The translations under genes and the position numbers were made by a program. Positions 1,454 to 57,955 of a stretch of DNA of 64,000 bases are shown here, one piece after another (within the stretch, counting starts at the first letter, position 1; every line of letters begins with the position of its first letter). Source of the DNA: Polytrichum commune (Eukaryota > Streptophyta > Polytrichopsida > Polytrichales > Polytrichaceae); NCBI GenBank assembly GCA_950295325.1, contig OX485803.1, positions 1,178,001-1,242,000 of the forward strand, written 5' to 3'. The notes under the pieces were generated by a model that searched no databases, was not told the origin of the DNA, and saw only the letters and a list, made by a program, of their open reading frames with translations.

Positions 1454-2299
1454 TTAATCACCACATGTGGGCACCATTTTAGGCTCACAGTACCATGCCG
1501 TACAACACACGTCTATGCTCTCAAGGGTGATGACCTTCCGACCCGCTCCGTTCACATGTATCGCCCTATGGACATCAAATTTTTTGGTGGATCTTAGACG
1601 GAAATCTCCAAGCCACATTTCCTCGCAAATGGCCCTCAATTTATCCCTTGGGAACAATTGGCAACAACGATGTACACAACAATCCTTTGTGGCAACTTCT
1701 CTAATAGACTCCTCACAGAGCAACCTTTGACGTTTACATTCATTTGCAGACGGAGTAGCACGTGCCAATGTATCGTACTTCCGTAGGCCTTTGCGTGGCC
1801 GAATGTTTGCTTGGAGCTCCTGTTGGATTTGGATGTGTCGTCGCTCATGGTCATGTAAGCTAACCCCCTCAATTGTCACATTCCTCAACGGCCACCTTCG
1901 CAACGAGAACCTATGAGTTGGATTCACTTCGGAATGTACGAGTGATTCCAATATAACAACTCCAACGTCCTCGGTTCCAAGGGGGTTTTCATCAATGCAA
2001 TCTTGTGGATGTGTGTTACGACAAATACCCTCCGCCACAACAACTCCACTGTCATTAACAAGTACCACATCCAAATTCACCCATGAAGCTCGTGAAAGCC
2101 CCGCACATTCCACAATGGGGCAAAAAGGGGCAGATGGCGAAGGACTCCCCAAAGGACCTTCATCTGCACTGTCATTAAAACTATCCTCCCCGACAATGTC
2201 TAGCTCATCCCCAGACGAAGAATGGGTGTTGCCCATGTCTTCAGAGAAGGAGTCCCCTCTTCCACCAACTCCCTCCATTGCGCCTACACACATGCACAT
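1454..2299 (-). pseudogene. N-terminal part of a transposon-type Cys-rich protein (truncated)
   Basis: Open frame of 281 codons. The first 100 or so residues are acidic and Ser/Gly-rich. The C-terminal 80 residues hold a CC-x3-CC motif (CCVHRCC), then a basic helix-like stretch and ITLESIDVCCTAWY. From memory of the family, this Cys cluster followed by a TAWY motif resembles the start of plant transposon-encoded proteins of unknown function; no search was possible. The frame ends soon after TAWY, and a GTGAGC donor-like site lies there, so the ORF may be a first exon whose partners are lost. It lies in opposite orientation just beyond the palindromic tandem array at 2479-3342. It could also be a chance-preserved fragment. 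Confidence 0.4.
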
Positions 2300-2478
2300 G
2301 AAACCTCAACACACATGGACACAATGCAAGGTTCCAAAAGAATCAAATATCGGAGAATGCAAGACATCATGATCAATGGGGACACCCAGGATAAAGACAT
2401 AAGCAACACAACTACAATGTGAACTCCCAATACTGTGCGCAAGTCCAAAAAAAGTTCCACAAAATATTTTGGGAGGGA

Positions 2479-3342
2479 GTTTGGGTCGGCCGACCTAAAC
2501 TCTGTGGCACCATGGATTCATCCACAGCTTGCCCATGGGATGGGGTCGGGATTCGGTTGACCGACTCAAACCTTGTACAATGATGGGTTCAGGGCCATAC
2601 AAAATTCGATCACGTTGTGGAAAAAAGTTTGGGTCGACCGACCCAAACCTTCCCATGCTCAACCTACATCCGCCCAAGCTGAGGTAGGGGTTTGGGTCGA
2701 CCGACCCAAACCTTCACAGGGTAAATATACCTCCACTGTGCTAGGGGTTTGGGTCGGTCGACCCAAACCCCTTAAGGGTCAGAGAGGCACCCTGAAACAC
2801 ATGGGTAGGGGTTTGGGTCGGTCGACCCAAACCCCTTAAGGGTCAGAGAGGCACCCTGAAACATTGGGGTAGGGGTTTGGGTCGGTCGACCCAAACCCCT
2901 TAAGGGTCAGAGACGCACCCCAACACACTGGGGTAGGGGTTTGGGTCGGTCGACCCAAACCCCTTAAGGATCAGAGACGCACCCCAACACACTGGGGTAG
3001 GGGTTTGGGTCGGTCGACCCAAACCCCTTAAGGATCAGAGACGCACCCCAACACACTGGGGTAGGGGTTTGGGTCGGTCGACCCAAACCCCTTAAGGGTC
3101 AGAGAGGCACCCTAACACACTGGGGTAGGGGTTTGGGTCGGTCGACCCAGACCTGCTAAGGGTCGTACAGGCACCCTAACACACTGGGATAGGGGTTTGG
3201 GTCGACCGACCGCAACCTGATAAGGGTCGTACAGGCACCCTAAACAGTAGTGGACAGGTTTGGGTCGGTCGACCCAAACCTCATCAGGGTCAGACAAAAA
3301 CCCTAAACAATAGTGGAGGGGTTTGGGTCGACCGACCCAAAC
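2479..3342. repeat. tandem array of 22 bp palindromes, 64 bp period
   Basis: The core is an inverted repeat with arms GTTTGGGTCG and CGACCCAAAC around a 2 nt centre (GT, AC or GC). Copies start at 2479, 2627, 2690, 2747, 2811, 2875, 2939, 3003, 3067, 3131, 3195, 3258 and 3321; a decayed one lies near 2552. From 2747 onward the period is 63-64 bp and the 42 bp between cores is itself repeated (CCCTTAAGG-TCAGAGA-GCACCC). This is a satellite with a palindromic core, not a spacer-diverse array. The same palindrome recurs in the introns of the gene at 8268-14994. Confidence 0.93.
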
Positions 3343-4253
3343 CTCATAAGGGTCAGACTCAAAACCCGCCAACACTCGTGGAAAGATGAAGAGCGCCCAA
3401 ATACACCACAAAATCCGGCGTATAATACGGAGGATATTGCGTGGTGTGTTGAATTTGAGCTCATTGCAAAGTTCACGGTGGGCTTGCACCCTGTGGATAG
3501 GTGCTCATGAAATTCCATGCTCTGGAAAAAGTGCTCGTGAACGGCAGCATGCACAAACCTTTCAGTACAGTTCCGACTAAGAGTTCTCTCTACGAATTCA
3601 GCAGCGGGAAAGGAGAAAAAAATGACCAACTTTTGGGGGGTGCGCCCCTTTATACTATCCACCTCCGCTTCCCAGACTTAGGCATTGGATGCCTTTCCCG
3701 CCTTCTTCTCTTGCAGAGGTTATTTCGAACCTCCTTACATAATTCCCGGTTTTTTGTTTATTGTAGAAAATGCGCATCTATCAATGCCCCTCTGATACCC
3801 CAGCCGTCATATGACTTAGTCTATGATATTTAATCTATTTTTTTGGTTTTGTGTGGATATGACATACATCATTGGGAGGAAGGGTGGCGGCCACATTTAT
3901 TTTTTCAAGTATCATGACAGTATATTTTAACCAATATATAGATCCAAACACAACTCCATTCAATGCTTTCAAGTGTAAACCTATTTAGGTGGGGTTTGGG
4001 CCATTTGGAGGCTTCAATTATGAGAGAGTTTCCAAGGCTTGAGGCCATTGTCATGGTGAATAAAATTATTTATTTGTCTCCACTAAACCCTACACCCTAG
4101 AACATTGTTCTATTATCTCGCATGCAAGTGTGGCAATGACGAACGTATGTGGACGTTCTTAAGGGGATACTAACTACCAATGTCCCTTTTTAGTTCAATC
4201 TTTTAATGTTACTTGAATCCATCCTCAAGTTCACTTCAAGTTTACAAATGTGT
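3343..4253. other. intergenic, no gene seen
   Basis: Short overlapping ORFs on both strands lack composition or motif support. No repeat boundary is recognised. Confidence 0.5.
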
Positions 4254-5075
4254 GTGAGCAAAACATCAAAAATTGGACCCTCAACCCTTATATCATCCAC
4301 AACATGAAATACGTATTGACTAAATACAAAACCAATTAGGATATCATGTTTAAACGTCCCATATAACATATTCACATGATCAACATTGTATTTACTATGG
4401 CCTTCCGATTAGACTCTTCTTCATATTATGCAAACAATATCTGTTATATCTTCCTCCATTATCTAATACACGTGCAGAGAACAATGAATAACAACATGAT
4501 TGCTTGAATGGCTTCATTTGATGTTGTGCTTCTCCGATCTACTTTTACATCACATTCCATATATTAAATACATCATAAACCATGGTTTATTAGCGACTAT
4601 GCGATTCCCTAAAGTGAGCAAAACATCCAAAGTTCGACCCCTAACCCCTAATAACATCCACAACATTTCATGTTATTTGAATAAACACAAGAGCAATCAA
4701 TATATCGCGTTTAAACGTCTCAAATAACAAATTAACATAATCAAGATCGTCTTTCCTATAACCTTCCTTTAAGACTCTTCTCACCAGTAAGATAATGTTA
4801 TACATTGACAATGTTAATATGTTATAACCCTATCTCCTAAACCCTAAACCCTAAACACCAAATCTAGTTGTGATTCACTGATGCCCCCATATACAAACAA
4901 CATCTATTTTATGTTGCGCCATCATCTAATATACATGGAGGGAACATGTATAACAACATGATTGCTTGAATGGCTCCATTTGATGTTCTGCTTCTCCGAT
5001 TTACTCTTATATCACAATCTAATATATATTAAATATATCATGAACCATGGTTTATTGGCCACTTTGCGATTCATC
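4254..5075. repeat. diverged tandem duplication with an internal insertion
   Basis: Segments 4254-4420 and 4434-4613 are repeated in the same order at about 4615-4785 and 4893-5075. Shared marks include GAGCAAAACATC and GATTGCTTGAATGG. The second copy holds about 100 extra bases (4790-4892) containing a short CCCTAAA run. Divergence is high, so the duplication is old. Confidence 0.75.
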
Positions 5076-5273
5076 AAAGTCACAATATCAGGGATGTATT
5101 TAAAACTTGAGCATGTCAGCATTTTCAAATAAGGCTCATGCATTTCAAAACCCTTACAAAATGCAGTTGGGGAATGTATTCATTTAATAGGCTCCACACT
5201 CAAGTATTCTAAATTGTTCCACATGTTGGGGGGTGTGGGTAATCTTTTTTATTCATTCAATATCGTGTGAGTT

Positions 5274-5469
5274 GTTGGCATCATTGGTATAGTCTAGATG
5301 TCAATGATTACATCGTTAAATATCACGCAATTGTATGGTTTTCCTAACATGCTCGAACAAAAGAGAAAGCAATGTCCTCAATGTGTTTGGAAAATTTAGG
5401 GTATGGTGTCATGTAAGTAAGGGTTAAGTATTCGTTTAGCATAAAGTTTTGTTGTAAGAATGCATTGGC
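5274..5469. repeat. direct repeat, copy 1 (partner 6553-6749)
   Basis: About 196 bp beginning GTTGGCATCATTGG and ending AAGAATGCATTGGC. The second copy lies 1.28 kb downstream with moderate divergence. The end points match well, suggesting a defined element or a segmental duplication. Confidence 0.8.
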
Positions 5470-5531
5470 TATATAAATGGTTAGTTTAGTAGAATAACAC
5501 ATTTTATGTAGCACCTTAGTGTACTCCAGAG

Positions 5532-5690
5532 TTCAAGGTACATACTATTTAAGGGCTTTATGTTGGATACTTCAAGTTACATACTATTTAAGGGCTTTAT
5601 GTTGGATACTTCAAGTTACATACTATTTAAGGGCTTTATGTTGAATAGCCTTCAAGTTACATACTATTTAATAAGGGCTTTATGTTGGAT
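5532..5690. repeat. 39-41 bp tandem repeat, four copies
   Basis: Units beginning TTCAAG(G/T)TACATACTA start at 5532, 5571, 5610 and 5651. The two middle units are nearly identical. No coding potential. Confidence 0.85.
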
Positions 5691-6180
5691 GAACGAGAGG
5701 TGCACTTGTACACTTCAGAATTATGTCTTGCTATAACTTTTACCGACATTATCGTTTTTTACGAACTAAGTCATATCATAATTTTTCGTGTGCATACTAC
5801 CTACTTATGTTATTTGGATGAAAAAATACTTTCTATTAAATGTTACAGAAATGTGTAACTCCGAATGTTATGCCACACTAATTAGAGAAAATAGTCTAGT
5901 GGATTAGGAAATGATCACAAGCACAAGGGATTGAAAACTTGAGAAACTTGTACAAAAGCTTTGGTGGGGTGCGAGGTGGGGGTGGGGGGCATTTTATACA
6001 TCATAGTAGAGTTATACATGAAGTCTTGGATCAAACTTAGGTTTGAGAATATAACCATAAAGTCATCCAATTATTTCAAGGGCTTAGAACCATTTTTAAA
6101 GCAGGACCACAACAACATAGTCTAATGTTTGGGTCGTCCTACCTAAACCATCCCAAATTAACGAATATAGTGATTAATAC

Positions 6181-6544
6181 AAATGCAGCCTAAAAAATAA
6201 GTGACTTAGCCTATAAAATTTTGAGAGTGTAGGACAAAGAGCCTATGCACAATTTAAGAACATAGGATATCAACCTAGTATGTGATAAAAAACATGTAGG
6301 AAATTTTACCTACAAATTTTTTAAAAGAGAGGATTTTAGCCATTCATCCTTCTTCAAATTGGGAAATTAGTTGGCCTAAGTACATATCTTTAGGCTATAT
6401 CTTGCAGGAAGAGTAGAGGTTGAATCTAAAGATGGTGAGGACTTTCACCCTTAAACTCATTTGAATTTTAGCAACCTTTCATAACTTATAATCAACGCTT
6501 TAAAAAATAGTTGGTTAATCCTTGGCCTTCAAACGTGGTGAAAG
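6181..6544 (+). repeat. dispersed repeat, copy 1, truncated inside a tRNA-like segment
   Basis: This segment matches, in opposite orientation, the repeat at 57351-58325. It runs from AAATGCAGCCTA to the first half of the tRNA-like region (CCTTGGCCTTC-AAACGTGGTGAA near 6520-6543) and then stops, joining the direct repeat copy at 6553. It lacks the roughly 320 bp insertion present in the other copy. Confidence 0.8.
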
Positions 6545-6552
6545 GCATAGTT

Positions 6553-6749
6553 GTTGGCATCATTGGGAAAGTCTAAATGTCAATGATTACATCGTTATAT
6601 GTCACGAAATTGTATTATTTTTCTAACATGCTCAAACAAAAGAGAAACCAACGACTTCAACTGGTTTGGAAAGTTTAGTGTATGGTGTCATGTAAGTAGG
6701 GGTTAAGTATAAGCTTTGGCATAAAGTTTTGTTGCAAGAATGCATTGGC
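6553..6749. repeat. direct repeat, copy 2 (partner 5274-5469)
   Basis: Same 197 bp unit as at 5274-5469, including the ATGGTGTCATGTAAGTA segment and the terminal GAATGCATTGGC. Confidence 0.8.
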
Positions 6750-6859
6750 ACCGCACCTTAGTATATTTCATGTAGCACCTTAGTTCATTGAAATAAGTAA
6801 TACCCGCTAAGGGTTTAGAGTTAGGCTTTAGGATTTAGGGTTCCCCGAAATCCTAATTA

Positions 6860-7611
6860 CATGGGTACCCTAATCCTGTGGGCCGCCTATTGGCGGGGGT
6901 GGGGCCAATTCCCGAGGCGAACAAAACCCCAAACGTCACCTTTTCAAATTCTTTCTCTCTCTCTCCGCGGCAAGCATTCCCTCCGCGCCTCGCTTGGAAG
7001 CGCCGCTTTCGCGAAGCGCCGCGGCGATTTAGGCGCGGTATTCCCACCATTCTGCTTCTTCTTCATTATTTCTCTTTTTGCTCTTGCTCTTGCTCTTGCA
7101 TAACTCTTATCCAATCTTAGGTTTTAGGAAGAGTCTTGAAAAGCACAAAAACTTGCGGAGGAAAGGTTTAGTGCGTGAGGGTAAAGGAACTTAGTAGAGG
7201 AGTTTTCAAGAGTGTTGTTTAAGAGTGTTCAAGAGTGTTGCAGAGTGTTGAAGAGTGCGGCAAGAAGTTAGGAGAACATCGTGTAGGAGGTTGAGATTGT
7301 GCTTGTGAGTATCAGGAGTTCTTGTGTAGTGCAAAAGATTTCAAAGTCGTTTGAGCGATTCTGTAATTTTGTGATAGATTCAGGAGTTGCTTGAGACATT
7401 TAGAAGTCTTTTGAGAGATCCAGTATTTGTTTGAGAGATTGAAGAGTTGTTTGTGAGATTGAAGAGTTGTTTGAGAGATTGAAGAGTTGTTTGAGGGATT
7501 CCAGAGTTGTTTGAGATTGAATAGTTGTTTCAGAGATTCCTGAGTTGTTATTGAAGGTTATTGGAAAGAGACATCATCTACTCCAAAGTGTTTGCAGTGC
7601 AAATTTCAAAG
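6860..7611 (+). promoter_or_regulatory. probable promoter and 5' UTR exon of the 8.3-15 kb gene
   Basis: A locally GC-rich block with CT tracts (6950-6965) and TTGCTC hexamers (7078-7099) is followed by transcribed-looking GAG/TTG-rich sequence. A good donor (AAAG|GTATTG) lies at 7611/7612, and an acceptor (TTGCAG) at 8262-8267 sits directly before the first ATG. This fits a non-coding first exon. No TATA box was confidently placed, and the transcription start is inferred only. Confidence 0.4.
7391..7549. repeat. 20 bp tandem repeat in the putative 5' UTR
   Basis: About eight imperfect units of TTGAGAGATTGAAGAGTTGT. The middle three are nearly identical and the outer ones decay. Confidence 0.85.
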
Positions 7612-8267
7612 GTATTGTGTTATGTTTCTGGTCTCTTAGTGTTGTAGCATACACAACGCATAAGCATTGTTTATGCTACGTGCAAACTTTTAAAATATAT
7701 TAGTAAAAAACACTTTGGGGAGACGACCCAAACAAGGCTGCTGTTTGGGTCACTCGACCCAAACAAAGGAAGATGTTTGAAACCCTAAACCCAATCAAAG
7801 GCAGATGTTTGGGTCGCTCGACCCAAACACGGTCTTCTAAACCCTAAACTCATAAAGAAATCCATGATGTTAGATACAATATCAAATACAAATCCACCCA
7901 AAACTAAAAAATCCGATGTCACCATACAAATGATGTTCACATATAACAATATAAACTAGGGTCCTCTCATTCTTGGGTCGCTGGACGCAAACAAGGGCTG
8001 ATGTTTGGGTCGCTCGACCCAAATACAGTCTTCTAATTATAAACCCATCAAACAATCCATGATGTTAGATACAATATAAAATGCAAGCCCACCCAAAAAT
8101 AAAAATACAATATCACCATTAAATGATGTTCACATATAACAATACACAAACCACCAAAATACATGCGGCAATTTATTACATTTCAATTACATCACGTGAC
8201 TTCTATTCATTTTGAAGAAGTTTGGGTCGAACGACCGAAACTAACATTGGGATTTCTTTCCTTGCAG
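7612..8267 (+). other. putative 5' UTR intron with palindromes
   Basis: It opens with GTATTG and closes with a pyrimidine tract and TTGCAG before ATGGCC. It holds palindromes related to the array at 2479-3342: 7743-7764 (centre AC/CT variant), 7807-7828, 7971-7992 (decayed), 8003-8024 and 8220-8241, with a further remnant near 7714. The last one ends in AAACTAAC, a plausible branch site about 30 nt before the acceptor. Confidence 0.5.
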
Positions 8268-9593
8268 ATGGCCCCAAAGAAACAACCAGGCGAAAGGTGG
8301 TTCATGCTTGCGCCAGACATGATATGGCAAGAACACAAAACACCGGAAGATGACTCCTACGTTCCTAAGGACGGGCTTGTCCTCGCGTGGTCTATACAAG
8401 TGGTTAAGGGTTCGCAATACAAAATGATTTTTGTTGTGAAGGTTGGGACCGTGGAGAAGCACACATGGGCTACTCTTACGGGGTGGGAGGTGGCATCGGT
8501 TCAGTCTCTTGGAGACTACATGGATGTCATCCTCGAGAACAACGCTGTCCAGAACGCGCATATGTTTATGCACCAGTTCTCCGAACCCTTTGACGCTATC
8601 TATGCAAAAGAAACATGTGTAGAACCAGACGTCATCAAACCGGAGTCCATATTCATCGATAACAGTACATCGAATACCAAGGTCTCAAGCCGGTTCACAA
8701 AACTAAAACATGCAATAACCGTGTTGAACAAGGACCTGCAAAGCAAAACCAAATCACAGCAACCTGTGAGGCGGAAAGCTACCACAGAGGAAGGAGCAGG
8801 GTCGTCAAGACCTCAATCGGTGAGGATGCCGTGACCAGTACCGGCTGACTCACGGAGGACCACTCCCTCCCAAACACCTACGAATAGTGAGGCTCCTACA
8901 CCTTCTGGGAGCCGTCAAACAACTCCATCCAAGAAGGCGAGAGAGTCATCTGTGATGACTGACGAGCCAGTCTCACCGGAGTTGCGCATGCCGAAGCCCG
9001 GCGAAGAGGTGGATGCAGGGGAGTTGCAGAAAATCGTGAACAATTTCACGACGAAATGCTCCCACTGTTTTTTCATGGGCAGGGATTTCAAGTTCGACGT
9101 GAACATCAGCCAGTGCCATCTAGCGCCACCGGAGAAGTGTGTCTGGGCAAAGGAGGACGCCTACGTTGACTGGATAATCGCGCAGATCGTTTGCGAGCAG
9201 TTTAAAGACGACAGACAAACGATTGTAGTGATACCACAGGGTCTCAAGAAAATGCCTACCCCTGAAATGTGGCTAACAATTCAGAAGGGCGATTTTTGGT
9301 TGATAGACGGCCAATACAACGTGGAGGCATCCAAGAAAATCCAACTCATGAATGAGTGGGATGATCCCAACAATCAGAAGGAAAAGCTGAAGGTTTGGAA
9401 GGCACTGATAGTGTGGTCTGACGACGAGACCAAGCTCAGCGACATCTCCCGGTACTTCAATATGGGAAACAAGAAGAGGGCCTACCAAGCTTCCTGGATA
9501 AAGAATATCATGGCCTCGCGGGAGGTGTGGGAGTTCTATGGTAGGCCTCCCAAAGAGAGGGAGAATGCGAAGGACAAGAATCCCAAATGGGAG
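8268..9593 (+). CDS. exon 1: unknown N-terminal domain plus ParB/DGQHR-like region
   Basis: 442 codons from ATG (MAPKKQPGERW) to GAG|GTGAGT, interrupted by TGA at 8832-8834 (codon 189). The frame continues unchanged after the stop through a Ser/Thr/Pro linker. Residues 1-188 are not recognised. Around residues 290-410 the order is: IVVIP, then GDFWLIDGQYNVEASKKI, then WKALIVW, then DISRYFNMGNKK. That order resembles ParB/sulfiredoxin-fold and DGQHR proteins, where a GQH(R)-type loop precedes a strand and a helix with a conserved N. This is fold-level recognition from motif order, not a search result. The start was chosen because the acceptor TTGCAG abuts the ATG. Confidence 0.5.
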
Positions 9594-9808
9594 GTGAGTA
9601 TTGTTTGGGTCGACTGACCCAAACTCCTGGTGCAGCCTTGTTTATTTAGTTTGGGTCGATCGACCCAAACTACTGTTGCAGTCTTGTGTTTTTTTAGTTT
9701 GGGTCGATCGACCCAAACTCTTGTTGCAGATGTTGGTCATGATATGGTTTGGAAATCACATGTACATATCTAACACGCATTCAAATGTTATGTTTTGTTC
9801 ACGTGCAG
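9594..9808 (+). repeat. intron 1 with three palindromes
   Basis: GTGAGT...GTGCAG intron. Palindromes at 9603-9624, 9649-9670 and 9697-9718, each followed by a short stretch ending in TGCAG, form a 46-48 bp tandem unit that looks like a repeated palindrome plus 3' splice-site cassette. Confidence 0.75.
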
Positions 9809-11141
9809 GATTTTAAATACCAAATGATCAACAAATTCTCCTCCATTGATAATTCGAGCCACAAGCAGAAGAAATACAACGACCTCAAGGGGGAGATTTA
9901 CTTGATTACAGCATCTGACTCAGTTTGGAGGAAGTGGAAAACCGTGTTTGAAAAGCATGAGACGGGGAATTTGATCGACCCCGTACACTGGCGCTTTCTT
10001 CAGCCAAACCTCGCGCTTCAAGCAAATGAAGCCTCTCGTGAGAGAGTTCTTTAGAACTCTTCAAGGGCTGTCAGAGACGGAGGTGGAGAAGGCGACATCG
10101 CACATCCTGCACGTGGCACCCACGGCGAAGAGGTGCTGGGTGCACCCGAAGATTGTCTTCGTAAAGCCCAAATCCTTCGTTCCTTCATGCTACACCATGA
10201 ACAAATGGACGGAGAACAGGAAAAAGAAGACGACTATCGTGCAGGAGCTGCATAAATTGGTGCCAGAGAGGAATATTGTCGTGGATGGCGAGGTTCATGA
10301 GGCTAACTGGAGAGCATTCAAAGATGAATATAAGTTCACCAGTGCCTCCATGGCGGCTCTAATAAGGGAAGCGGGGGACGACTTCTTGCGGGCCAAGATG
10401 GTGAAGGGTGGGAAGAACCGGACGCTTCCGGATCACACAGCGCGTGCGTTCTCGAACTTCATCAAGGAGAAGAAGATTGTCCAGTTTGAAGGGGACGCTT
10501 ACTTCAACCTTGTCATCTTCGACCCTTTGAAAATTCAGGGCTGGCCAGGTCAAGACGCCAGAATGGCGATAAGGACGAAAGCAAGGGACCGCTTTCCTTT
10601 TGGGATGATTGATTTTAGAAATATTTCTGGAAGCTCATTTGAGGGCACGATGAGCACCCTCTTCTACGACCCCTTCTTATCTAAGTTCGTCGATTATGCA
10701 AGCCCTAAGTTCAGGGAGGTAGATATCTGGCTTTGGATAGTCGAGGATAGGAGGGCGGAGCAGGTGTACGAGCTTGTCCAGAAACTGTAGCCGGAGTATG
10801 CAGTGTCCAAGTCTCACTACATCGCCGCACCGGCAGAGGGGGCTTACACAACGTTGAAGGACAAGAAGACCAAGTTCGTCAACGTCTTGTGTTTGTACTT
10901 CGTGTACAAAGCGGAGTTGCTGAAGGTGCCGAACCACCCTATATCCCGGATGGACAAACTCTTCCAAGTTCCAGAAGGGTTGGGTGCCAACAAGTGCCTC
11001 TACGACGAGGCTAAATACGCGAACTATCCTGCAGATGAGCTGCGGATGGAATTTTACATGAGAATGATGAGGACGCTGACGAGGAGAGGGGACTGCATCT
11101 TCAACGTCTTCGGAGGCTCAAAACCTGTTTATGCTGCTATG
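9809..11141 (+). CDS. exon 2: beta-class DNA methyltransferase-like region
   Basis: 1333 nt, which is 444 codons plus one extra base. The frame shifts near 10020 at CTTCAAGCAAATG; skipping one base restores a continuous frame. A TAG at 10788-10790 then interrupts it. The segment YFNLVIFDPLK (near 10498-10533) fits motif IV (FDxxxxDPPY) with PPY changed to PLK. Further on, ELRMEFYMRMMRTLTRRGD leads into CIFNVFGGSKPVYAAM at the exon end, which fits the KPxxL...PGDxVLDPFxGSG block with the last Gly replaced by Lys. DPPY before FxGxG is the beta-class order seen in N6-adenine and N4-cytosine methyltransferases. The degenerate motifs suggest weak or no catalysis. ParB-like plus methylase fusions are known from phages and bacteria. 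Confidence 0.5.
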
Positions 11142-11302
11142 GTAAGTGACTTTCTATAGCTCGTAAGCAGGTTTGGGTCGATCGACCCAAACTAGGCTCT
11201 TTGCAGGTTTGGGTCGACCGGCCCAAACTACACATTGTACTTAGTCTTGTTTATGTGACTGCCTCGACAAATTCTAATTTCCCTATAACTTGGATTGTGT
11301 AG
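11142..11302 (+). repeat. intron 2 with two palindromes
   Basis: GTAAGT...TGTAG intron, phase 0. It holds palindromes at 11171-11192 (centre AT) and 11207-11228; between them lies a CTTTGCAG acceptor-like string. Confidence 0.75.
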
Positions 11303-12787
11303 ATGTCGGGGCTGAATATATACTCCTACATAGAGGATGGCGATCTGCCATTTTACAAGGTGCAGAAATCGCTGGCGAAGAAGATGGACATCCTCGATTG
11401 GATCCCGGGTAGCTACGTCGACGAGGTTGTTCAGGGGGGCGAAAACCCTCTTGATAGGGTGAGGCGCATCAACCCGGAGGAAATGGACATGAGGGCCACG
11501 ACCCAAGTACCCGAACCTCTGGTCGGGTTGCATCCGGGCAATCCGTCCCGCACAGAAGGTGGCGAGGTTGAGGAGGAGGAGGAAGAAGAGGAACACGAGG
11601 AGGCGGAGAAGGAAGGCGACGTCGAGGAAGGGGCAACGGGCTTCACGCAAGAATCCGAAGCCCCTCAACGGAAGAAGGCGATGCGGGCGGCAACCCCGCA
11701 GAGTAAGCTCGTGCCCGTCCTGACGGTGGACGATGCACGGGACATGTACTCCAGGGACACGACCGCCACGTTCAGGGAGAGGAGGAAGATGAAGGGGAAG
11801 AAGTTGTATGGCGACTACTCCGTGAAGGAGACCATTGCCATAAGCAGCGAGGACGACGATGATATTGAGCTCGCCAAACGGCTCAAATCGGATCCCCCCT
11901 CCCCGACAGCGTTCGCTGGCATGGTTAGGGTGAAACCCGAAGTCCTCACGGTGGATGAGGCGAACGAGAAGATGCGGAGGGACGAGGAGCAACGCGTCTG
12001 TCTGCAGAAGGTTGCCGCTGAGGAGCCCTCAATGCGGAACGAGGTAGCAGAGCTGAGGGCTCTCCTGTTGGAGCAGGAGCGACATAGGACGATGGCCCAA
12101 CCTCCGTCCCACGCCGAATTGATATCACAAGTGATACAAAGAATGTGGGCGCAAGGTTTGGTGGTGGCTCCCTCCAGCTCCTTCCCGCACTTGCCCCCCG
12201 GCTTCCCTGCGCAGAGCATCCCTCGGCAACCTATGCCGCAATCGTCTTTCAGCTTCCAGCATTTGATGCGGCCCCACCAAGTTCCGTACGCGCCGGTCCA
12301 ACAAGTGGATGACCCCAACATCTGGCGCGTCTCTGGAGCCTCCTCCCCTTTGGGCCCTCCACCACTTCGGCCCCCCATAGTCATGGCGCCCCCTCACCAA
12401 TCGGACGACCCCAGGATGTTTGGGTCGACCGACCCAAACCCACCATCCACTGTAGTGTCCGAAGGGCCTTCTCCAGATGCAGGACAATTTGGGTCGGGCG
12501 ACCCAAACCCCGTTGCAGCGCAGTCCTCCCTTGACCAACATGGGTGTCAACTAGACACGGCCATGCTAGATGTTGAAGGCCTGCAAGGGCCTGGTGATAC
12601 CTCTACTCCTAACCAAATCGATGAACGCATGCATGATGCACATGCGGAGATTGGTTTACGACAAGGGCCTGATGCCGATCGTTTGCAGGAGAAGGTTCCT
12701 GACGTCGTTGGAGAAGGCGGTGGCGAGAGAGGCGGGGCAGCGGGGACGGTGGAGGCTTCCACATCGTCGAGACATGACCAGGGCGAG
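11303..12787 (+). CDS. exon 3: end of methyltransferase fold, acidic and Pro-rich linker
   Basis: 495 codons without a stop. It opens with SGLNIYSYIEDGDLPFYKVQ, which continues motif I from exon 2 in the way lGRxxxGIExdxxxy follows FxGSG in beta-class methyltransferases. A run of Glu (residues 92-115 of the exon), basic patches, a short coiled-coil-like ELRALLLEQERHR and a Pro/Gln-rich stretch follow. Two copies of the palindrome lie in frame at 12418-12439 and 12487-12508, giving FGSTDPNP and FGSGDPNP. The exon ends at GGCGAG|GTAATA. Confidence 0.5.
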
Positions 12788-13276
12788 GTAATACACTGAG
12801 CCCTCCCCAGTTTGGGTCGACCGACCCAAACTTCCTGGGTCAATGTCTTGTTGGCGTGGTCGTGTCCCCCTTGCTAGGAGGAAATGCACACCCCTTGCCC
12901 CCCCCCATGCTCTACACTTGCTCCCCCTCCCCCAACGTGCCCCCCGCGATCCCCTTCGTCTCACCTGCATTCGACTACGCTCGACCTTGGCGGCGCTCAA
13001 CCAATTTTGTAGATGTAGAATTAGGGTAGTGTGAATGCCCTCGTTCACCGCGGTCCCCCCCCCCATCAAATTGTACATAGAGATTTGTAAAAATAAAATT
13101 ATTATTTTTGGCGCCCATATGTTTGCATCCGTGTCCCAATGTATGTTGTTCGCCTTGTATATTTTTGTTGCCACCAATGGTCCAATTGTTCTTGTGTTTG
13201 CACAAAATTTCCGTTCTGCTTGAGATGGACATAGCATAACATAGTCCTTGCCGCCTTCTCTCGCTCGTCGCCGCAG
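12788..13276 (+). other. intron 3 with one palindrome
   Basis: GTAATA...GCCGCAG, phase 0. The palindrome at 12810-12831 lies near the donor. C-rich runs occur at 12897-12935 and 13056-13063. Antisense ORFs here have no support. Confidence 0.55.
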
Positions 13277-14047
13277 GGTTCGGAGCATAGCGTCGCGGCT
13301 CCCCACCGATCCTGTCCGAGGAGTGTGGAGGACAGCGCGGTGGTCCCCCCGATTTTGCCCTCGCCACCTTCGCCTCCCAAGACCCGGTTCCTGGTGCTAG
13401 ACCTCAATGGGGTCCTTGTCCAGTGCGTGCATTGTCCGAGGGTCCCAACGGTCCCTTTCTGCAAGCCCGAGGACGCCAACTACGATGGTCCCCCCGCGTA
13501 CATCAAAAGCAAGCTAGTGTACCTCCGCCCGTGGCTTCGGCGCTTCCTGCAGGTCGCCCTATCCAAATGGTGGGTGATCGTGTGGAGCTCCATGAAGTCC
13601 GAGACCACCCAGGCCGTCGTGGAGTTCATCTTCAAGGGACTCCAACCCCCGTGCTTGGTCCTAGGACAGGATTCTTGTAAAACATTATACACCCCCGAGG
13701 GCAGGGTTGTGAAGAAGCCCAACAACCCCGCCGTAAACCAATTTCTTAAGGTCTTGAAGCCAGTCGTATGGGACCAGCGTCCGACCATGGTCGGCTGTCC
13801 CTACGACGTTCGCCCCACCCGTGACAACACGTTGATGGTGGACGACAGCGCTTCCAAAAACATTTTGAACCCGACCTCGAACTTCATAGTTTGCCCCACG
13901 TGGACGGTCGAGAAGGTCCGAGACCGCTTTTTGTTAGACCTACTTAAGTACATTCAAACGCTCGTGGGGAGCGGACTACCCGTGCCCCGGTTCCTTAGTT
14001 GTAATCCGATAGGCGAAAGATACATGGATCCGAAGGACTATATGTAG
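13277..14047 (+). CDS. exon 4: FCP1/NIF-type HAD phosphatase-like domain
   Basis: 256 codons and a TAG. FLVLDLNGVL matches HAD motif I (DxDG[TV][LV]) with the second Asp replaced by Asn, as in some plant FCP1-like proteins. VIVWSSMKSETTQ fits motif II (the Ser/Thr block), and LMVDDSASKNILNPTSNFI fits the C-terminal DDS block of FCP1/CTD phosphatases with the following N. The nucleophilic Asp is kept, but the general acid/base Asp is not, so phosphatase activity is doubtful. In the family the usual substrates are phospho-Ser/Thr, for example the RNA polymerase II CTD. No stop or frameshift interrupts this exon. Confidence 0.65.
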   Translation, partial: GSEHSVAAPHRSCPRSVEDSAVVPPILPSPPSPPKTRFLVLDLNGVLVQCVHCPRVPTVPFCKPEDANYDGPPAYIKSKLVYLRPWLRRFLQVALSKWWVIVWSSMKSETTQAVVEFIFKGLQPPCLVLGQDSCKTLYTPEGRVVKKPNNPAVNQFLKVLKPVVWDQRPTMVGCPYDVRPTRDNTLMVDDSASKNILNPTSNFIVCPTWTVEKVRDRFLLDLLKYIQTLVGSGLPVPRFLSCNPIGERYMDPKDYM

Positions 14048-14207
14048 AGAGAGTTGTACGCTCACGCGAAATATAATAAACTCATTTGAGATACTACATG
14101 GTGTGCCATTGTGTGTGATATATTATGCCTCAATTGTATATCGATTTTCTCATGCTCCCCCCTGCCCCCCTCCCCTTGGGTTTTGTTTGTTTTAATTTTG
14201 CCATCAG

Positions 14208-14561
14208 CGTTTGGAGCCCTCGATTGAGATCGTCAGCGAATCAAACTTGGGGAGCTTCTTCTACGAGACCGTCTACGATGCCGCGTCCACCATCGACTAC
14301 TCCAAGGAGCCTATTGACGCCGGCGTCGTCGATAGCCCCCCACCCAAGCAAATCTTCCGGCATTCTCCGTCCCCGTCGCCGCTCAAGGGCATAAATCGCA
14401 AATGCGTCCGGACGTCCCCCTCTCGGCCCGGCGGCAGTATTACACCTCAACGGCGGCTGCGGATGGACGCTCGGCCAATGAAGAGTGGAACCCTTCCTAT
14501 TCCTTTGCGGGACGCATTGCCCCTCCTCGCCAACTCCGACGGGAACGCCCCCGGTGACAAG
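14208..14561 (+). CDS. exon 5: Ser/Pro-rich segment
   Basis: It follows a long pyrimidine tract and CCATCAG, reads 118 codons in phase 0 and ends AAG|GTGAAA. The product is rich in Ser, Pro and Arg with no recognised domain. How it joins exon 4 is unclear because exon 4 ends in a stop; it may be a lost-donor exon of the same gene or a separate transcript. Confidence 0.4.
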
Positions 14562-14691
14562 GTGAAACCCCCCCCCCCCAACATGGTTAACCGCGCATTA
14601 CAATCATCCCGCACTTAAAAAATGAACGTGTGACTCGTTTGGGTCTTCCTCCCTAAACTAACACGTGTGTTCTTGCATTCACGCGTTGCAG
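14562..14691 (+). other. intron with one decayed palindrome
   Basis: GTGAAA...TTGCAG, phase 0 on both sides. It contains a run of 12 C at about 14568 and a decayed palindrome at 14637-14658 running into CTAAC, a plausible branch site about 33 nt before the acceptor. Confidence 0.5.
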
Positions 14692-14994
14692 GTTGCTCCC
14701 ACCCGTAAACCTATGCGGGCTAGTATGTCCGTCGAGTTGGAGCGTTTCTACTCCATGATCAGAAATGCAAGACAGTCCACTTCATCGTATTCGAATTCTT
14801 CGTCGTATAATTCGGGCGGCCGACGGAATCCAAAATGTGTTATTGATGGCGGTCACCCCAAGAATGGCTATAGTCGCGGGGTGGAGATTTTCAGGAATGT
14901 TGAAGCAATGCGAGCAAAAGAAGCCGCAGGAAAAGAAAAAGAAAAAAAAGAAAAAAAAGAAAAAGAAAAAGAGGCAGTATCCGAGGCTAGATAG
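14692..14994 (+). CDS. exon 6: Lys/Glu-rich C-terminal tail
   Basis: 100 codons and a TAG after TTGCAG|GTT. A Ser/Tyr/Asn-rich middle (SSYSNSSSYNSGG) leads to a Lys/Glu run near the end, encoded by an A-rich tract at 14928-14970. No domain is recognised; a nuclear localisation role is only a guess. Confidence 0.4.
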   Translation, partial: VAPTRKPMRASMSVELERFYSMIRNARQSTSSYSNSSSYNSGGRRNPKCVIDGGHPKNGYSRGVEIFRNVEAMRAKEAAGKEKEKKEKKEKEKEAVSEAR

Positions 14995-15130
14995 GCCATA
15001 GTAGGCGTAGGGTTTTGGGGGCGTAGGCAACATCATTTTGGGTCGCACTATCCAATGGATGTGTGGTGTTAGCATGCTATGCATTTTACATGCCATAATT
15101 TGTATGTTTTTTTTGCAATAATATAAGTGT

Positions 15131-15375
15131 CACATGATTTCCCCTTCAATATGGTTTAAGGTTTGGATTGCCCTACCTAAACCATCACAAATATGAATTT
15201 GGAATATTTTGTATGTTATATTATATTGGTTCACATATTTCCCCTTCAATATGATCTATGGTTTGGATTGCCCTACCTAAACCATATTCATACAAGTTTT
15301 TGTGCGATAATATGAATGTTTTAAGATTTCCCCTTCAACTTGGCCTAAGGTTTGGATTGCCCACCCTAAACAATC
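15131..15375. repeat. three-copy 95-100 bp repeat with decayed palindromes
   Basis: Each unit has ATTTCCCCTTCAA followed by a palindrome-like core GTTTGGATTGCCC-(T/A)CC-TAAAC at 15161, 15261 and 15350. The core looks like an AT-shifted relative of the 22 bp palindrome upstream. Confidence 0.75.
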
Positions 15376-16165
15376 CCAAATATGAGTTATTAATGGGGTT
15401 CTTGTTCTAAACACCCGCTTCAAAGTGTTCGCATCTTACAACTTTCTCCAATATGTGTTCCATTTATCCTTGTTCTTATTTCTATGAATGTCTCAAAATG
15501 CCCAAAAAGTCTCATTTTAACCATTATAGTGTTCCTTGCATTTTTAAGCGATTGTGTTAGTGGGTTATAATAGTAGTATTTTCATCATTTGCGGTGGTTG
15601 GGAATTCATCGTGACAATATGTGAATTAATGTATTGTATGGTATGTGATGGGGTCACGGGGGGTTGACTCCTTGGGGGGTGTTGTATATCACGTGTGGCC
15701 AAGGGGTATTTTTTTGGGGGGTATTTTGATGGCCTGGACTAATTAAATGGACCCTTCAATTACCTAATTTTCTAATTCTTCATGTTTTTTGGGTCCATAT
15801 AATTACTTACAATTTCCGAAGTGGAGTAATATTTCAACCCCTAAATTTATTATAACAAATTAAAGTAAATCAAAAAAGTGAAGTTTGGAGATTAAAGACA
15901 AAAATCTTGAACACACTATACAACCCTGAAACGACCACATGTATGCAAGACTATTGAGAAGAATCCCACAGAAAAATATATGCATTACGGTGTGTATTTA
16001 CAAACACAGTTTTCATACAAAAGCCGGTTCCTACTTCAAGATACTTAGCCCTATTTAAAAGCCGAGACATCCTGAACCTGCACAAACCAGCTAAATACCT
16101 TAGGAATTGCCTGCGCCAAAACTAAACCCGCTAGACATACAATATCAAAACTGAAGTAGTGGAAT
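15376..16165. other. intergenic, no gene seen
   Basis: AT-rich DNA with poly-G/T stretches near 15655-15735. Nothing coding is recognised. Confidence 0.5.
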
Positions 16166-16686: not shown

Positions 16687-19600
16687 TTATTTTTGATCAT
16701 TAATGAATTGATTTAGGGCATCTGCATCTTCAGAGTCTAGGGTGTATACATCGGTGGACGAGTTATACGAAAGTGTCACAGTGGTGATGATTGTATCTAC
16801 ATCAATCCATCTACTATCCGTATGGTCATACTTGAACTTCAGATGGCCCGGACATTTACGAAAATATTGAAGCATAACTTGAAGATTGCATGGGGAGGAA
16901 CTTTGCTTCCCTGAAGTTGAAGACCGGTTCATAAGGTCAATGGGGTGTCGAAGCAGACCCCATTGTGTTCCAACACGCCTCCGCATCGACTGTACACGGC
17001 CAATCCACCATGTTCCATCGTCCACTCCCTGCAAAATGTTCGTTGGGGTTCCAGATTTTGACGCTTTGGAATTGCGACCCCGCTTTCTCTTCGCCGCTGA
17101 CCTCACTGTAGAGGAAATATTGGCTGTACTACTCTGCACAAAATAAACCCCACAATCCGACCCTATACCAAGGAGACATGTGCTAGAAGATGCAGCAGCT
17201 GTTAGATAGTCATCATGGTTGTTAAAATACATAGAATGCTTAACCCGAGTCAATCTATCCTTAGATAAAAATGGATTACCGTTCAATTGTGACACCAACG
17301 TAGACTTGTAAATGGAATGACCTGCAAACTCTACTGTTGGACTAACCTGGGTAGGGCATGCTACAGTTGACACTTGCTCTTCGTGGGAACTCAACATATT
17401 TGAGATGGCATCCCTCACCTCTCCCTCAAGCACAGCTGTTGCATCCTGACCGTCGTCACAGAAATCATTCTCCAAATCGTCTTGGCACAAGATTTGTGCC
17501 CCTTCTTCATCTCCCGCATGCCTTGATGCCATCATACTTTCTCTGATCACTTCGGAATCACCATCCTCTCCGGACACAGGTCTAGAACCCTGTTTGAACT
17601 TCATGAACCGTTCATCCACCTTCTCCAACTCCCATGGCTTGTTGAACCATGTTTTCAAATTTGCACGTGCATGTACACTTGGAGCCATGTTTAAATGTCT
17701 TAACATAACTTGGGCCAATTTTAGACCCTCCTGTAATGCCTCTACAACCTCAGGATTTGTTCTAATGTCGCCATAGTCAGCAAGGTCACATGGGGCTTCA
17801 CCATCCATGAGGGGATGTAATTTGGCCCAAATGTTTTCCATTTTATTGTGTTGCTTGTTGAACTTAAGGCCATTTTCAGCGTACTCGACTTCCGACATAT
17901 GGTTCAACGTGTTGGCTGTATTGACCAACTCATGAAAGTCATACGCTCTTTCGTTACCATTCATACCACCAATTTTGGAGAAAAAAACCTCACAACAGTC
18001 GCTCCCGGTTAGGTGCAGTGGAACCTGCAAGTGAGGATACCTATCCCTAAAGTGGCAAATGAGAAGAACAACAAAGTGACAAGACAATTGGATGTCAACG
18101 AAACATTGTTGGCTAACGAAATGATGAGCTTCAACGATCGCCATGGAGTTCCCCTGCACGGCATGATAACCATGTTTCAACCATAATCTCCAGATCCTGA
18201 AAAAGAATGAAACTTTGGCCGCCAATACTATCCTAGACCGCAAACTATGCCTAGGCGAGCAAAAGATGTCTATGTAATCTGCACAAATCTCTAAGTAATA
18301 CTCTGTCCCTAGTGTACGTTCCCTGTGGACATCATCCACCTCTCGCAAACGTCTTAAGCACTGTCAAACTTTTTTAGAACACAGTCTTTGGGCTGAACCC
18401 CAGTTTTGCCGATCTTTTCTATCAATATCCTCTTGTCTCAGACCATGTTCATCTGCAGTGAACCGGTTATAGACATGACCCACATGTTGGAGTAAACATA
18501 CGTCACCTCCAAGTTGCATGCAACGCACGGAAGACAACAAAGGGTTTATTAATTTCTTCCCGTTGTGAATGTAATCTTGGTCATGTAGACCAGAAACATC
18601 ACCATCTCCATTAATCGATGCTGTGAAAAACCATCCTTCCCACCCCACAGAAAGACGCTGACCAATTGGGTTTCTATAGTCTTGAAGCATTAGTTGCCTT
18701 CTACGACTGTCTCCGTCACTAGCATGTCCAACTATCGGTCCGACTGCAGCTTGGCACTTAGTAGCCCACAATGCATGAATACTATCCCATTGACGCCTTA
18801 CCCAAGCGGAATCAAAGCAATTACATGTACAACAAACAACTAGAACAAGTCGGGGTAGCTTGTCATGTAGGGGATTTACGATGATTACCCTTGCAAAGGA
18901 CCCAACCTGGTCATCCCTAAATGATTCAACAATTTTACTGTATCCATCTTCTCCTACTCCACAGACAGGCTTATACGTTGTTATACACACATGATTGGCT
19001 TTTGGCCCACAAAAACCAGCAAGCGTGTCCCACTTAGCTTCCCACGATATTCTGCCTTTTACCTTGGTCTCATCCTGAGCCAAAATCACTGGGACGGGAC
19101 CAATAATGTTATGAGCTGTCTTGGCGTCTGCGTATATTCTAGCAACGGCACCAAAAATTTCGGAGTGCTCACCCGGTACAAACTGGACTCCTTTCTTAAG
19201 ATCTCGTTTTATTGTGTTGTAATTAGGTCCAGCAAAGTTCAAAGCAAACAAGTCGCACATCCGCCTCCCGCCATAGACCTTCATTGCTTGAGCAAAACAC
19301 TTACTGTTTCCACTATATCGATTACCCCTATCGTCCCGATTCAGATTTTGGGCTACATCTTGAATGAAGTCCCAAAGTGCAGGCTTACCTCCAAATGCCC
19401 CGGTTCGATGCGCATTCAATATATTTTGGCAGAACTTATGGACATTGTGGTCAGAGGTGGCATTCTTAGCCATCTCTCGAAGAGTTGGTCGTTTCACCTT
19501 CAGTTGCGTTATTTTAGCACGTGCTGCCCAATGTTGCAGCCTCTCGAATCTATATTTCCTCGCTACATACCTACTGTGACGTGAAAGCTCATTCATAGAC

Positions 19601-21197
19601 AAATAACCCACCTTCATACCACTAGAAGTGGTTCGTAAGCCCCTCTTCACGATAGACTTGTCCTCCCTAACAACCCTTTTTCTAAAATCAGATTCTAGAG
19701 GAATTTCAGCGCACGACGGGCAAGTAAGATTAGGAAACCCTGCAACGAACGATGACACCCTACGACATTTCTTGTGTCGAAATGTACCTTGGACTCGTAC
19801 TTCAGTATCACGAACAGAAACAGAAGCCTCTACGTGTGGTTCAGGATACCAAGATACACCAACATGTCGATCTTCTAATAACGAGGTTACAGAATATGAT
19901 ACTCCACCATATACAACATTGGGTCCACGATAACCCCAACACATGACACTCAACAAAGAATTACTATCATGTGAGAATGGATCACATGTTTGCCCACCTG
20001 CGCTAGTGCTTGTACCACCTCCACATCTGAAGAATGCATGCAAGTCCGGTTGATTAGACTCCACAATTAAAGCTGATGACGTCCGTGGCCTTCCCTTCCT
20101 ACCGGTGAGCAGCGCAACACCTCTTCGCTCTTGATTCTTGAATTCCTCAACTGCTTGTAAGTGCTTTGAACTAGCCATGTGATTCTTCAATGTGGATTCC
20201 AATTTTTTTTGGGCGGGCACAACTGGACTAGACCATCACGACAGTAAGGGCACTTCACCTTCAACCAATAGCTCTTAAGTCTATCTTGATCCAGATCTCC
20301 CACAGTGTGAAATGGCTTCATCCCTTCTTGTAGTTCACCATTCACAGCGTTCATTATGTCAACTCCTTCGGCCATCAATCGTCTATGATCAGCTGTAGTT
20401 AGCACTACAGCTTTTCCTTTCGGCGATGCAGATTGGGGATGATCAAGGTAGTTCACATTGTGCTTGCGACACCAAGATTTTATGTGTTGGATACTCTGAA
20501 GGTGACTTGTTCTGAAATTTGAGAACAAGTTTTGTATAGTGACCTTACTGTGATTTCCACTTTGCCCCCCCGTCTCCTTCCGGCACTCACAGCAATACAA
20601 TTTGACAACTCCCACGCCATCTTGATCCCATGACCGGAGCTCCCACTTGTGATCATCGAGGTCAGAATCTTTCAGATCTCTCTTCAGCTTCTCCGCTTGA
20701 GCATGGTACCGTTCCATGACTTCAGCTGAAATCAACGTCGACCTTAACGCCAAGACGCTCTGGTCGGTGTCATCAGCGGTTCCAGCAGTCCCTCCACTAA
20801 TTCCACTAACCCTAGAAGATCCAACAGGGTCAATGCTCACCAGAACTCCCAAATCGTTCAACAAAACAAATTGTTCTTCATTGCAGATCGGGTCGGGCCC
20901 TTCTTCAACGTGAGATCCATCTTCTAAACGACGCCGCTTAAGAGGATCTTCGTTTGCACCTTGGGACCGAATCACATACACATCTCCTTCAACATCATTC
21001 AGGCGCTCCACCTTCTTCCTAATCCGCCGCTTATCCTCCACATCCCAATAGTCGAACTCCCAATCGAGAACCTCCTCTGTTTCCAAGCGAACTCTTAATG
21101 AAGCCAGTGTTTCTGCTCCCTCTTGTTTCACCTTATCAAATATCTCGGGTGCTGCGGACTCATCCTCCAACGTCCAAATCTTGACAAGCCGCGCCAT
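16687..21197 (-). pseudogene. large DDE-type transposase-like gene with zinc fingers, one frameshift and one stop
   Basis: Reading starts at ATG 21197 (context ACCATGG; upstream in-frame ATG at 21248). The N-terminal 90 residues are unrecognised. A C-x2-C...H-x5-H motif (CCEC ... HLQSIQH) and a second (CPYC ... HMASSKH) look like BED/C2H2 zinc fingers. The second is split by a frameshift in an 8-nt A run (plus-strand T run 20203-20210). The next frame holds an ordered set typical of RNase H-fold transposases: ILAQDET, then HASDGDSRRR, then DQDYIHNGKKLINPL, then, after a TGA at 18364-18366, GSDCCEVFFSKIGG with a candidate catalytic Glu. The frame after the TGA is unchanged. The C-terminal 350 residues are Ser-rich and include a WWIGRV-type module. 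The superfamily is unsure; P-element-like is one option. Confidence 0.5.
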
Positions 21198-21248
21198 GGT
21201 GTAAGATACCCTAAACTTAAAACCTCTAATTGAAAACCCCAGAACCAA

Positions 21249-53269: not shown

Positions 53270-54274
53270 TTAGTAATTGGTCCAATAATCCCTACTCTTC
53301 AACACAACGTCAATTCTTTGTGGCATGCTTTCATAAAGTGCCATGCAATCTTGTTCAATGAAATTGGGATACACTAAACACACACACTCCCACAATTCTT
53401 GGATACCTCTTGGTGGTGTCGTAAATTGATTCAATTGCCGTTTGAAAAATGCCCATAAATGTTCAATGGGATTCAAATCCGGAGATTGTGCAGGCCCCTA
53501 AAGGAGTTGAAATGGTTGTGATGCCAACCATTCTTGCACTATTTTGCTTGTGCGTTTGGGAACATTACCATGTTGAAAGACCAACTTACTTGGATCCAAA
53601 TCATAATTTTGTGTAGGATTTTTTGAAATAAATTTGTACAAATACCTATCCATCATACCTTCAGTTTTGTACCGTGCTCCCGGCCCAAAAGTTGTCATGC
53701 ATCCCCAAATCATCACTGGCCCACCACCACGCTTCACGGTCTGATGGACATGTTGAGGTCCAACGTGTTCTCCATCTCCAATCCAAAACCATGACTTACC
53801 ATTTGAGTTTAACCTATTCATCTTTGTATCATCACTAAAAATCACGCATTTCCAATCATCAATGGTCCAATTCTTATACCTTTGAGCAAACCTCAAGTGT
53901 ATGAGAACATGTTTATGACACATAAATGGCTTCCTTTGATGCACTTGTGCACCCAATTCAACCTCTCTCAAAGCACGCCTCAAATTGATGTCTGACAACA
54001 ATTTACACGTTTTAGATAGAACTTGTTTTGTTGTCGCATATGCAATTTCAAGTCCACCTTTAGTAACGAGAGTAACGCAACACCTCTTCTCTTGGTTTGC
54101 AAGAAACTTTGATTGCCCTCCTCTTTGTCTCTCAATCTCGCCCCCTACATCCTTCCTCAAATGCGTTACAAAATATTGGCTCATGCCCACTAAAACGACA
54201 ACTTTGCGAGTAAAAACACAACTTCTAAGTTGCACCAAAGCTTGGTGCTTCTGTTCTTGAGACAATGGAAGCAT
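53270..54274 (-). pseudogene. Tc1-like (DD34E) transposase, nearly full length
   Basis: One frame of 334 codons, close to the usual length of about 340 for Tc1 transposases, interrupted only by a TAG at 53498-53500. That stop falls directly before GPAQSPDLNPIEHLW, where the family usually has a Trp codon, so TGG to TAG is likely. CVIFSDDTKMNRLNSNGKSW carries the first Asp less its first residue. The second catalytic position reads FQHGNVPKR, so Asp is replaced by Gly. The final Glu (NPIEHLW) lies 34 residues on, giving DD34E spacing. WGCMTTFGPG matches the WGC block. Even without the stop this copy should be catalytically dead. No terminal inverted repeat was located. Confidence 0.88.
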
Positions 54275-57350: not shown

Positions 57351-57590
57351 CAGTGTCCGAAAAGTTTTTGAAGTTATTGAGGTTAATTGCCTACCTCTTT
57401 AAAAGGGCATAGGCTATTTCCCTCATGGCATAGGTTGCATCCTACAATATCAAATTTTTGTAAGTTGAAAACCTTTTGAGTTTTTAAGTTACCCGCCAAT
57501 TGCCTTCAAAACTAATTTTTAGTAGGTTAAAATCCTTCATATCTTTTAATGTTGTAGGCTTTAAATTCAAAATTTGAGTACTAAGTGGTA

Positions 57591-57645: not shown

Positions 57646-57894
57646 TTAACCAACTCTTTTTTTAAAGAGTTGATTATAATGAAAGGATGCTAAAATTCAA
57701 ATGAGTTTAAGGGTGAAAGTCCTCACCATCTTCTGATTCAACCTCTACTCTTCCTGCAAGATATTTCTCAGGATTAGTAAACAAGAATCGAAACTTTCTT
57801 GAATCCTTCCACAAAGATATAGCTTCCTCCAAAATAAACTCAAAATTTTTGGTTGGTCCTTGATATGCGACACTTTAATTTCAACACAGCGTGC

Positions 57895-57953: not shown

Positions 57954-57955
<2 letters not shown>

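Follow-up and report, generated by a model that had tools for sequence, protein, structure and literature searches.

A large transposon of Polytrichum commune and its accessory gene for a putative palindrome-binding multidomain protein

Positions 1490-15533 of the window, by which we mean the whole 64,000-nucleotide stretch of Polytrichum commune contig OX485803.1 that was analysed (G000:C1:1178001-1242000), were found to be a decayed copy of a DNA transposon of about 16.5 kb, and the gene with ParB-like, methyltransferase-like and FCP1-like regions that lies within them is an accessory gene of this transposon. We consider it probable, at about 60%, that its multidomain protein binds palindromes of its own transposon family and marks the element as self, and that it either resists silencing or aids mobilisation. 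As predicted, the protein would be composed of a ParB/DGQHR-like box, a region that has the methyltransferase motif order but is devoid of catalytic residues, a linker of acidic character and an HAD domain of the FCP1/NIF type whose active site is altered. The sequence-only reading of this locus had taken it for a plant nuclear gene, a claim that had to be replaced because the gene belongs to a multi-copy element, exon 2 of which was scored at least 92 times in the genome that was searched (407.8 Mb, 64 contigs).

The transposon and its accessory gene

The element was delimited using blastn against six full copies, which were extracted with 30 kb each. These copies, which are 16.45-20.0 kb in size, have sharp shared ends with 28-bp terminal inverted repeats that match in all six (the left one is AACACTATATTCGTTAAATTGAGACTTT and the right one its reverse complement, with one-base variation in single copies), and all six are bordered by 4-bp target duplications (TTGT, AATA, ATAC, AATA, TAGG and AAAT, as determined by eye). 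The left arm of one of them, copy D, has two long frames of 504 and 569 amino acids (aa) on the - strand; the first contains DUF7869 (PF25273, E 3.1e-42) and is on the strand opposite to the accessory gene, and the second had no Pfam match. DUF7869, which was not found named in the open-licence literature, is a domain that we take to be the Sola1 transposase, and we likewise assume that a 4-bp target duplication is a Sola1 trait. Going by this duplication and the gene layout, the element is probably a large Sola1-like DNA transposon. A Sola1 element of Physcomitrella is among those named in PMC9033089. With 360 bp of exon 1 as the DNA query, 40 copies were scored among 378 candidates genome-wide, because of which a single-copy nuclear gene was rejected; with the exon 2 protein as the query, 92 copies were scored among 1228 candidates. 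The identity of these 92 was 90-100%, and 68 of them had no in-frame stop when counted by eye. Elsewhere in the window, pieces of positions 57389-58295 recur internally in each of the six full elements, at 91-96% identity, as a nested or shared mobile piece.

The accessory gene runs on the + strand through exon 1 (8268..9593; N-terminal region and ParB/DGQHR-like box), exon 2 (9809..11141; methyltransferase-like motif order), exon 3 (11303..12787; IEDGD segment and acidic proline-rich linker) and exon 4 (13277..14044; FCP1/NIF domain). The motifs that had been quoted for it were located in + strand frames of the window, and introns 1 (9594..9808), 2 (11142..11302) and 3 (12788..13276) are all phase 0, as had been proposed, and have GT..AG ends; intron 1 differs between the copies by 48-53 bp, which is about one palindrome unit. 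A second family, gamma (C1:69894155, L028+L029), keeps the whole gene with the same exon order and with introns 1-3 at identical positions and with the same ends, and the possibility that the exons belong to different genes was rejected because of this conserved order. When our family, to which the window copy belongs, was compared with this gamma copy, exon 1 aligned in two pieces, one of 388 residues at 30% identity and one of 82 residues at 49%, and identity was 37% in exon 2, 29% over 136 aa in exon 3 and 42% in exon 4. Parts of two exon-like stretches further downstream, E5 and E6 (14208..14991, + strand, as 14208-14561 and 14692-14991), are also conserved in gamma (47% over 40 aa and 39% over 66 aa, respectively). 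Because the open frame of exon 4 ends with NKLI-stop in both families, the E5/E6 region (14208-14994) may be separate from exon 4 or may be joined to it via an unrecognised splice.

Comparison of the six copies revealed that the third codon positions were the most variable in exons 2, 3 and 4, not in exon 1, E5 or E6, and that indels were commoner in the introns than in the exons. The ratio of non-synonymous to synonymous substitution rates (dN/dS) in exon 2 was 0.071 in our family (copy D vs L037) and 0.106, 0.107 and 0.139 among three gamma stretches, in which the ParB region gave 0.037, 0.049 and 0.094; the accessory protein is under purifying selection. A set of captured gene fragments that were stitched into the transposon and have no function for it would agree with the eukaryotic host-type nature of the FCP1/NIF domain and with the general knowledge that transposons capture host genes, but the selection test (dN/dS 0.04-0.14) and the conservation of the gene across families disfavour this explanation, which we regard as very improbable. 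Moreover, among seven element copies compared over the right arm (8203-15533 in the window and the corresponding stretches of the other copies), changes of the C-to-T type were in excess at CG (105/5821) and CHG (89/3996) sites when set against CHH (143/16477), as plant-type methylation would leave, and the element would appear to be a target of silencing.

The eight best DUF7869 matches genome-wide were compared by eye with the ParB-like ones: for six of them a ParB-like match lies at a distance of 0.2-9 kb on the other strand, and for two none is listed; in three other DUF7869 families, no accessory gene was found by tblastn in one 10-kb stretch each (L027, L030 and L031). A low-copy family is represented by L038:781-3426 (- strand, G000:C2:44398380-44401025), which is a single-exon ParB/methyltransferase-like frame of 882 aa without stops and is perhaps nearer to the ancestral form. 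When this frame was used as the query, all of the 47 candidates were scored and 34 matches resulted, many of them broken.

Family palindromes and their putative reader

The non-coding parts of the element are rich in a 22-bp palindrome, GTTTGGGTCGnnCGACCCAAAC, that has 9231 exact matches in the genome, compared to none for its reversed control. There are 26 sites in the window (up to three mismatches), all of which are within 2479-12831: an array of 13 upstream of the transposase frame (2479..3342; 10 exact and 3 with one or two mismatches, mostly in a 64-bp unit), a single site at 6127, four sites ahead of the accessory gene (7743..8241; one exact and three with one mismatch), others in intron 1 (three), intron 2 (two) and intron 3 (one, at 12810), and two within the coding sequence of exon 3 (12418 and 12487). 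The full elements have 22, 26, 23, 26, 26 and 21 copies without a mismatch in the 18 inner bases that the motif specifies, and their flanks have none. All of the perfect 9+2+9 palindromes in the six elements were of this motif (the mean was 0.1 in 50 first-order simulations of copy D); other palindromes are present in the flanks and elsewhere in the window. The half-sites are fixed and the spacer letters vary (AC, GT, AT, CT, GG and AA), and at nine consensus sites in seven copies changes in the half-sites accounted for 5/1116 base calls vs 720/50241 in the rest (P 0.003).

In the gamma family, the corresponding places are occupied by a different palindrome, TTTACGGACGnnCGTCCGTAAA, with 1147 exact genome matches and none for the control. 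It forms a cluster upstream of the gene in L028 and is found there in introns 1, 2 and 3, and in L034, L035 and L036 it is present upstream and in introns 1 and 2, intron 3 being outside the stretches read; some of all these sites have a mismatch. This motif persists among gamma stretches that differ at synonymous sites by dS 0.8-2.2. Neither motif was found within two mismatches in the stretches of the other family (the six elements, the window copy and L037 vs L028+L029, L034, L035 and L036); one gamma-like site with two mismatches lies in a flanking part of copy E. In a third family, represented by L040 (a stretch of 1.5 kb that precedes a 261-aa NIF frame), both exon 3 and intron 3 contain TTTACGAACGnnCGTTCGTAAA-like sites, and the motif of this family is one step from that of gamma. 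Apart from the two sites in exon 3 and the overlap between the third family and gamma, the motifs are thus family-specific and clustered in non-coding parts of the elements. From this pairing of protein and palindrome by family, from the positions of the sites and from their two-half-site form, we infer a putative binding of the palindromes by the accessory protein. A dimer of the protein would bind the palindromes of its own family and tag the element as self; less certainly, the bound protein might open the promoters of the element against host methylation or help transposition.

The same sites could be read differently. If they were binding sites of the transposase, with the accessory protein having another task, it would fit that the largest array of copy D (sites 3776-4636) adjoins the transposase frames; however, sites are also found upstream of the accessory gene and in its introns in two families, the terminal inverted repeats do not contain the motif and several kb separate the arrays from the ends, which makes this explanation unlikely. 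It is more doubtful still that the palindromes spread on their own account, through tandem-repeat growth, slippage or cruciform formation, and are read by no protein. Many of them are in tandem arrays in which the number of units varies between copies, and their CG letters are unprotected, but the same half-sites recur upstream, in introns and in a coding exon, the sequences at corresponding places differ between two families, and the half-sites are constrained when the spacer is not.

Several observations weigh against binding and self-marking by the accessory protein. The palindrome could instead be read by the transposase or by a host protein. Three of the 262 CG positions inside palindromes had changes of the C-to-T type, a share that is not clearly below the one for CG elsewhere given above, and since these positions mutate about as often, the sites show no sign of escaping methylation. 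The comparison of the gamma motif covers the stretches read, to which the array beside the gamma transposase does not belong. Additionally, single sites of the third-family motif are also present in gamma stretches, so the sites are non-exclusive there and the two families are not cleanly separate. The low-copy ParB-like relatives L032, L033 and L038 have neither motif in the stretches read. As for the protein itself, the evidence for ParB is restricted to 19-59 columns, and the methyltransferase-like region is without profile support.

Regions of the protein and state of the window copy

The ParB-like part of the sequence-only reading held at the DGQH box, for which the support is moderate, but no whole-domain profile match was obtained. 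The box is invariant in the six aligned rows (DGQHS in other copies; the window copy reads DGQYN). The top match for four long exon 1 frames was phrog_1033, a ParB-like partition protein, at E 0.25, 0.024, 0.056 and 0.061, and it was always located at this box; neither the L037 frame, which is shorter, nor the low-copy relatives (L032, L033 and L038) matched it. Pairwise hhalign comparison of A1, the family alignment of the ParB-like region, with three phage ParB-like proteins gave 82.8%, or 89-90% without the low-copy rows, and 0.1-0.5% for reversed controls, all with small alignments. The ParB region had no Pfam or NCBIfam match over the cut-off, and searches of the PDB with single exons and with the profiles A1 and A2 listed no ParB, methyltransferase or FCP1 chain. 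Using tblastn, the L035 box gave five chance-level matches in phages (E 3-7), three of which are annotated as ParB-like; the remaining two, from Staphylococcus phages, involve the same part of the query at the same identity and are not named ParB-like, one of them being a second phage 85 record. In plasmids it gave three chance-level matches, none of which was ParB. Close relatives in viral contigs were rejected after three scans in which none was found, as were those in phages, where the L038 frame had no match at E 1, and PADLOC returned nothing informative.

In exon 2 and the start of exon 3, motif-like segments do occur in the order of the beta-class methyltransferases (in the window copy DFRNISG, which is DFRNIPG in other copies, VDIWLWIVED and FNVFGGSK), but no profile match was found in Pfam, NCBIfam, PHROGs or PDB. 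FDPLK, which had been read as motif IV, is not at the conserved motif-IV-like place; all six aligned sequences have D-x-R there (DFRNIPG, DFRAIPG, DCRWG and others) and none has (D/N/S)PP(Y/F/W). Motif I, FxGxG, is also absent: the rows of our family and three from gamma read FGG(S/T)K, and L038, by eye, GLCST (the L032 row does not cover that place). These changes point to a methyltransferase-like part that binds DNA instead of modifying it. The proposal of a non-catalytic or DNA-binding role for the altered residues fits this, and the D-x-N of the FCP1-like part is kept in two families, but the PLK on which it partly drew is not at the motif IV place. An active or formerly active ParB-methyltransferase that marks adenine or N4-cytosine of its own element, an activity that has been proposed for the Ectocarpus Sola1 gene, would agree with the gene layout, which is the same as there (on the strand opposite to the transposase of a large transposon), and with the methyltransferase-like motif order. 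Given D-x-R in every aligned sequence and the lack of a profile match, it is an improbable explanation, and binding of the palindromes by the protein is preferred.

The FCP1/HAD assignment is well supported, with a PF03031 match above the cut-off (E 1.1e-13; segments DLNGVL...WSS...VDDS) and weaker NCBIfam support that was below it; phmmer of this exon against the PDB gave no match at E 0.01. Similarly to FCP1/SCP/NIF HAD phosphatases, the domain has the first catalytic Asp and the WSS and DDS segments, but unlike them it lacks the catalytic pair of DxDx(T/V), since the second Asp is replaced by Asn (DLNGV) in both families, and the single-sequence PDB search found no match. Such changes suggest weak or no phosphatase activity. 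With less certainty, the domain may act on or bind the phosphorylated tail of RNA polymerase II. A genome-wide NIF search gave 965 candidates, 150 of which were scored, and because frames of 257-283 aa, as in the transposon exon, were found in most of the matches listed, host NIF genes look like a minority among the candidates. Regarding a host origin of the domain, the one other NIF match examined (L039) did not have the DLNG motif, and the FCP1 exon was not found in the low-copy relatives L032 and L033 (tblastn) or in the L038 frame (Pfam).

Decay, as had been suggested, does apply to the window copy, in which three in-frame stops (TGA at 8832, TAG at 10788 and TAG at 14045) and a frameshift at about 10000-10040 break the accessory gene, but not to the gene family. 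The TAG at 14045 truncates the frame of exon 4 earlier than in other copies. The left part of the copy (1490..5534, blastn against the full copies) is without the outermost 2.8 kb or so of the left arm, a loss that includes the frame with DUF7869 as well as the inverted repeat of that side; the left terminal end was not found. What remains there is a cut-off piece of 283 aa (1457..2305, - strand) that matches the 5' frame adjoining the DUF7869 frame in full copies, has no Pfam match of its own and presumably belongs to the transposase gene. A degenerate right terminal inverted repeat was recognised at 15506..15533 (- strand) by comparison with full copies. Outside the element, three adjoining long frames on the - strand (16687-21299; 558, 623 and 370 aa; segments QDETKVKGR, GHASDGDSRRR and CCEVFF) look transposase-like and have no significant Pfam match, and a Tc1/mariner-like frame is found at 53501-54304 on the same strand (HTH_Tnp_Tc3_2, E 4e-4, below the cut-off). 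Another - strand frame of 479 aa (43399-44835) had no Pfam match and, going by a motif, presumably resembles a plant B3/ABI3-type regulator.

Related systems and meaning

In bacterial ParB-parS systems, the palindromic sites are on the same element as the protein gene. Similarly to these and to the phage ParB-like (DGQHR) proteins (L041 and L042), the transposon has a DGQH box, palindromic sites and the protein gene, although here the similarity is limited to the box. A ParB-methylase is also known from Bacillus cereus (PMC5512222). Closer in layout are the algal transposons with ParB and methyltransferase accessory genes treated in the consulted passages of PMC12477816, in which Iyer 2011 and Petroll 2025 are cited: these are likewise large DNA transposons with the gene on the strand opposite to the transposase and with the ParB-like/methyltransferase-like order. 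Going by those passages, the added FCP1/NIF domain, the loss of the methyltransferase motifs and the family-specific palindromes are features of the moss element only. The gene combination had been called undescribed; this does not hold for ParB with methyltransferase on eukaryotic transposons, which has been published (PMC12477816). For the FCP1 fusion, as for the palindromes, a narrow search of the open-licence literature found no earlier account. As far as the searches reach, the FCP1-type domain and the family palindromes beside both genes and in introns 1-3 are new.

VANDAL elements, which we take to be of another transposon superfamily than the element described here, offer a further comparison. 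The anti-silencing VANC proteins of VANDAL transposons in Arabidopsis are transposon-encoded accessory proteins whose short target motifs form tandem repeats upstream and within introns and are not the same in related elements (PMC5735166). According to the same source, they differ in their domains (DUF1985 and DUF287) and in the length of the motif (a 9-mer for VANC21, compared to the 22-bp palindrome here), and their effects are experimental, whereas those proposed here are inferred from sequence. It is because of the VANC analogy and the methylation footprint that resistance to silencing is proposed for the moss element. A more specific version, which we put forward tentatively, is a self-marking similar to ParB-parS: the protein would load on the family palindromes at both promoters and in the introns, would spread or cluster there and would keep the element transcribable against CG/CHG silencing, and protein and palindrome would co-diverge, with each family rescuing only itself.

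If the binding is true, the self-recognition of transposons that is known from the Arabidopsis VANC proteins would have a second origin, in domains of the prokaryotic type for partition and modification. With its FCP1-like domain the protein might act directly on RNA polymerase II, and the site, being 22 bp long, is potentially useful as a sequence-specific tool. The pairs of proteins and palindromes would moreover make it easy to test in what way the DNA address of a selfish element is changed.

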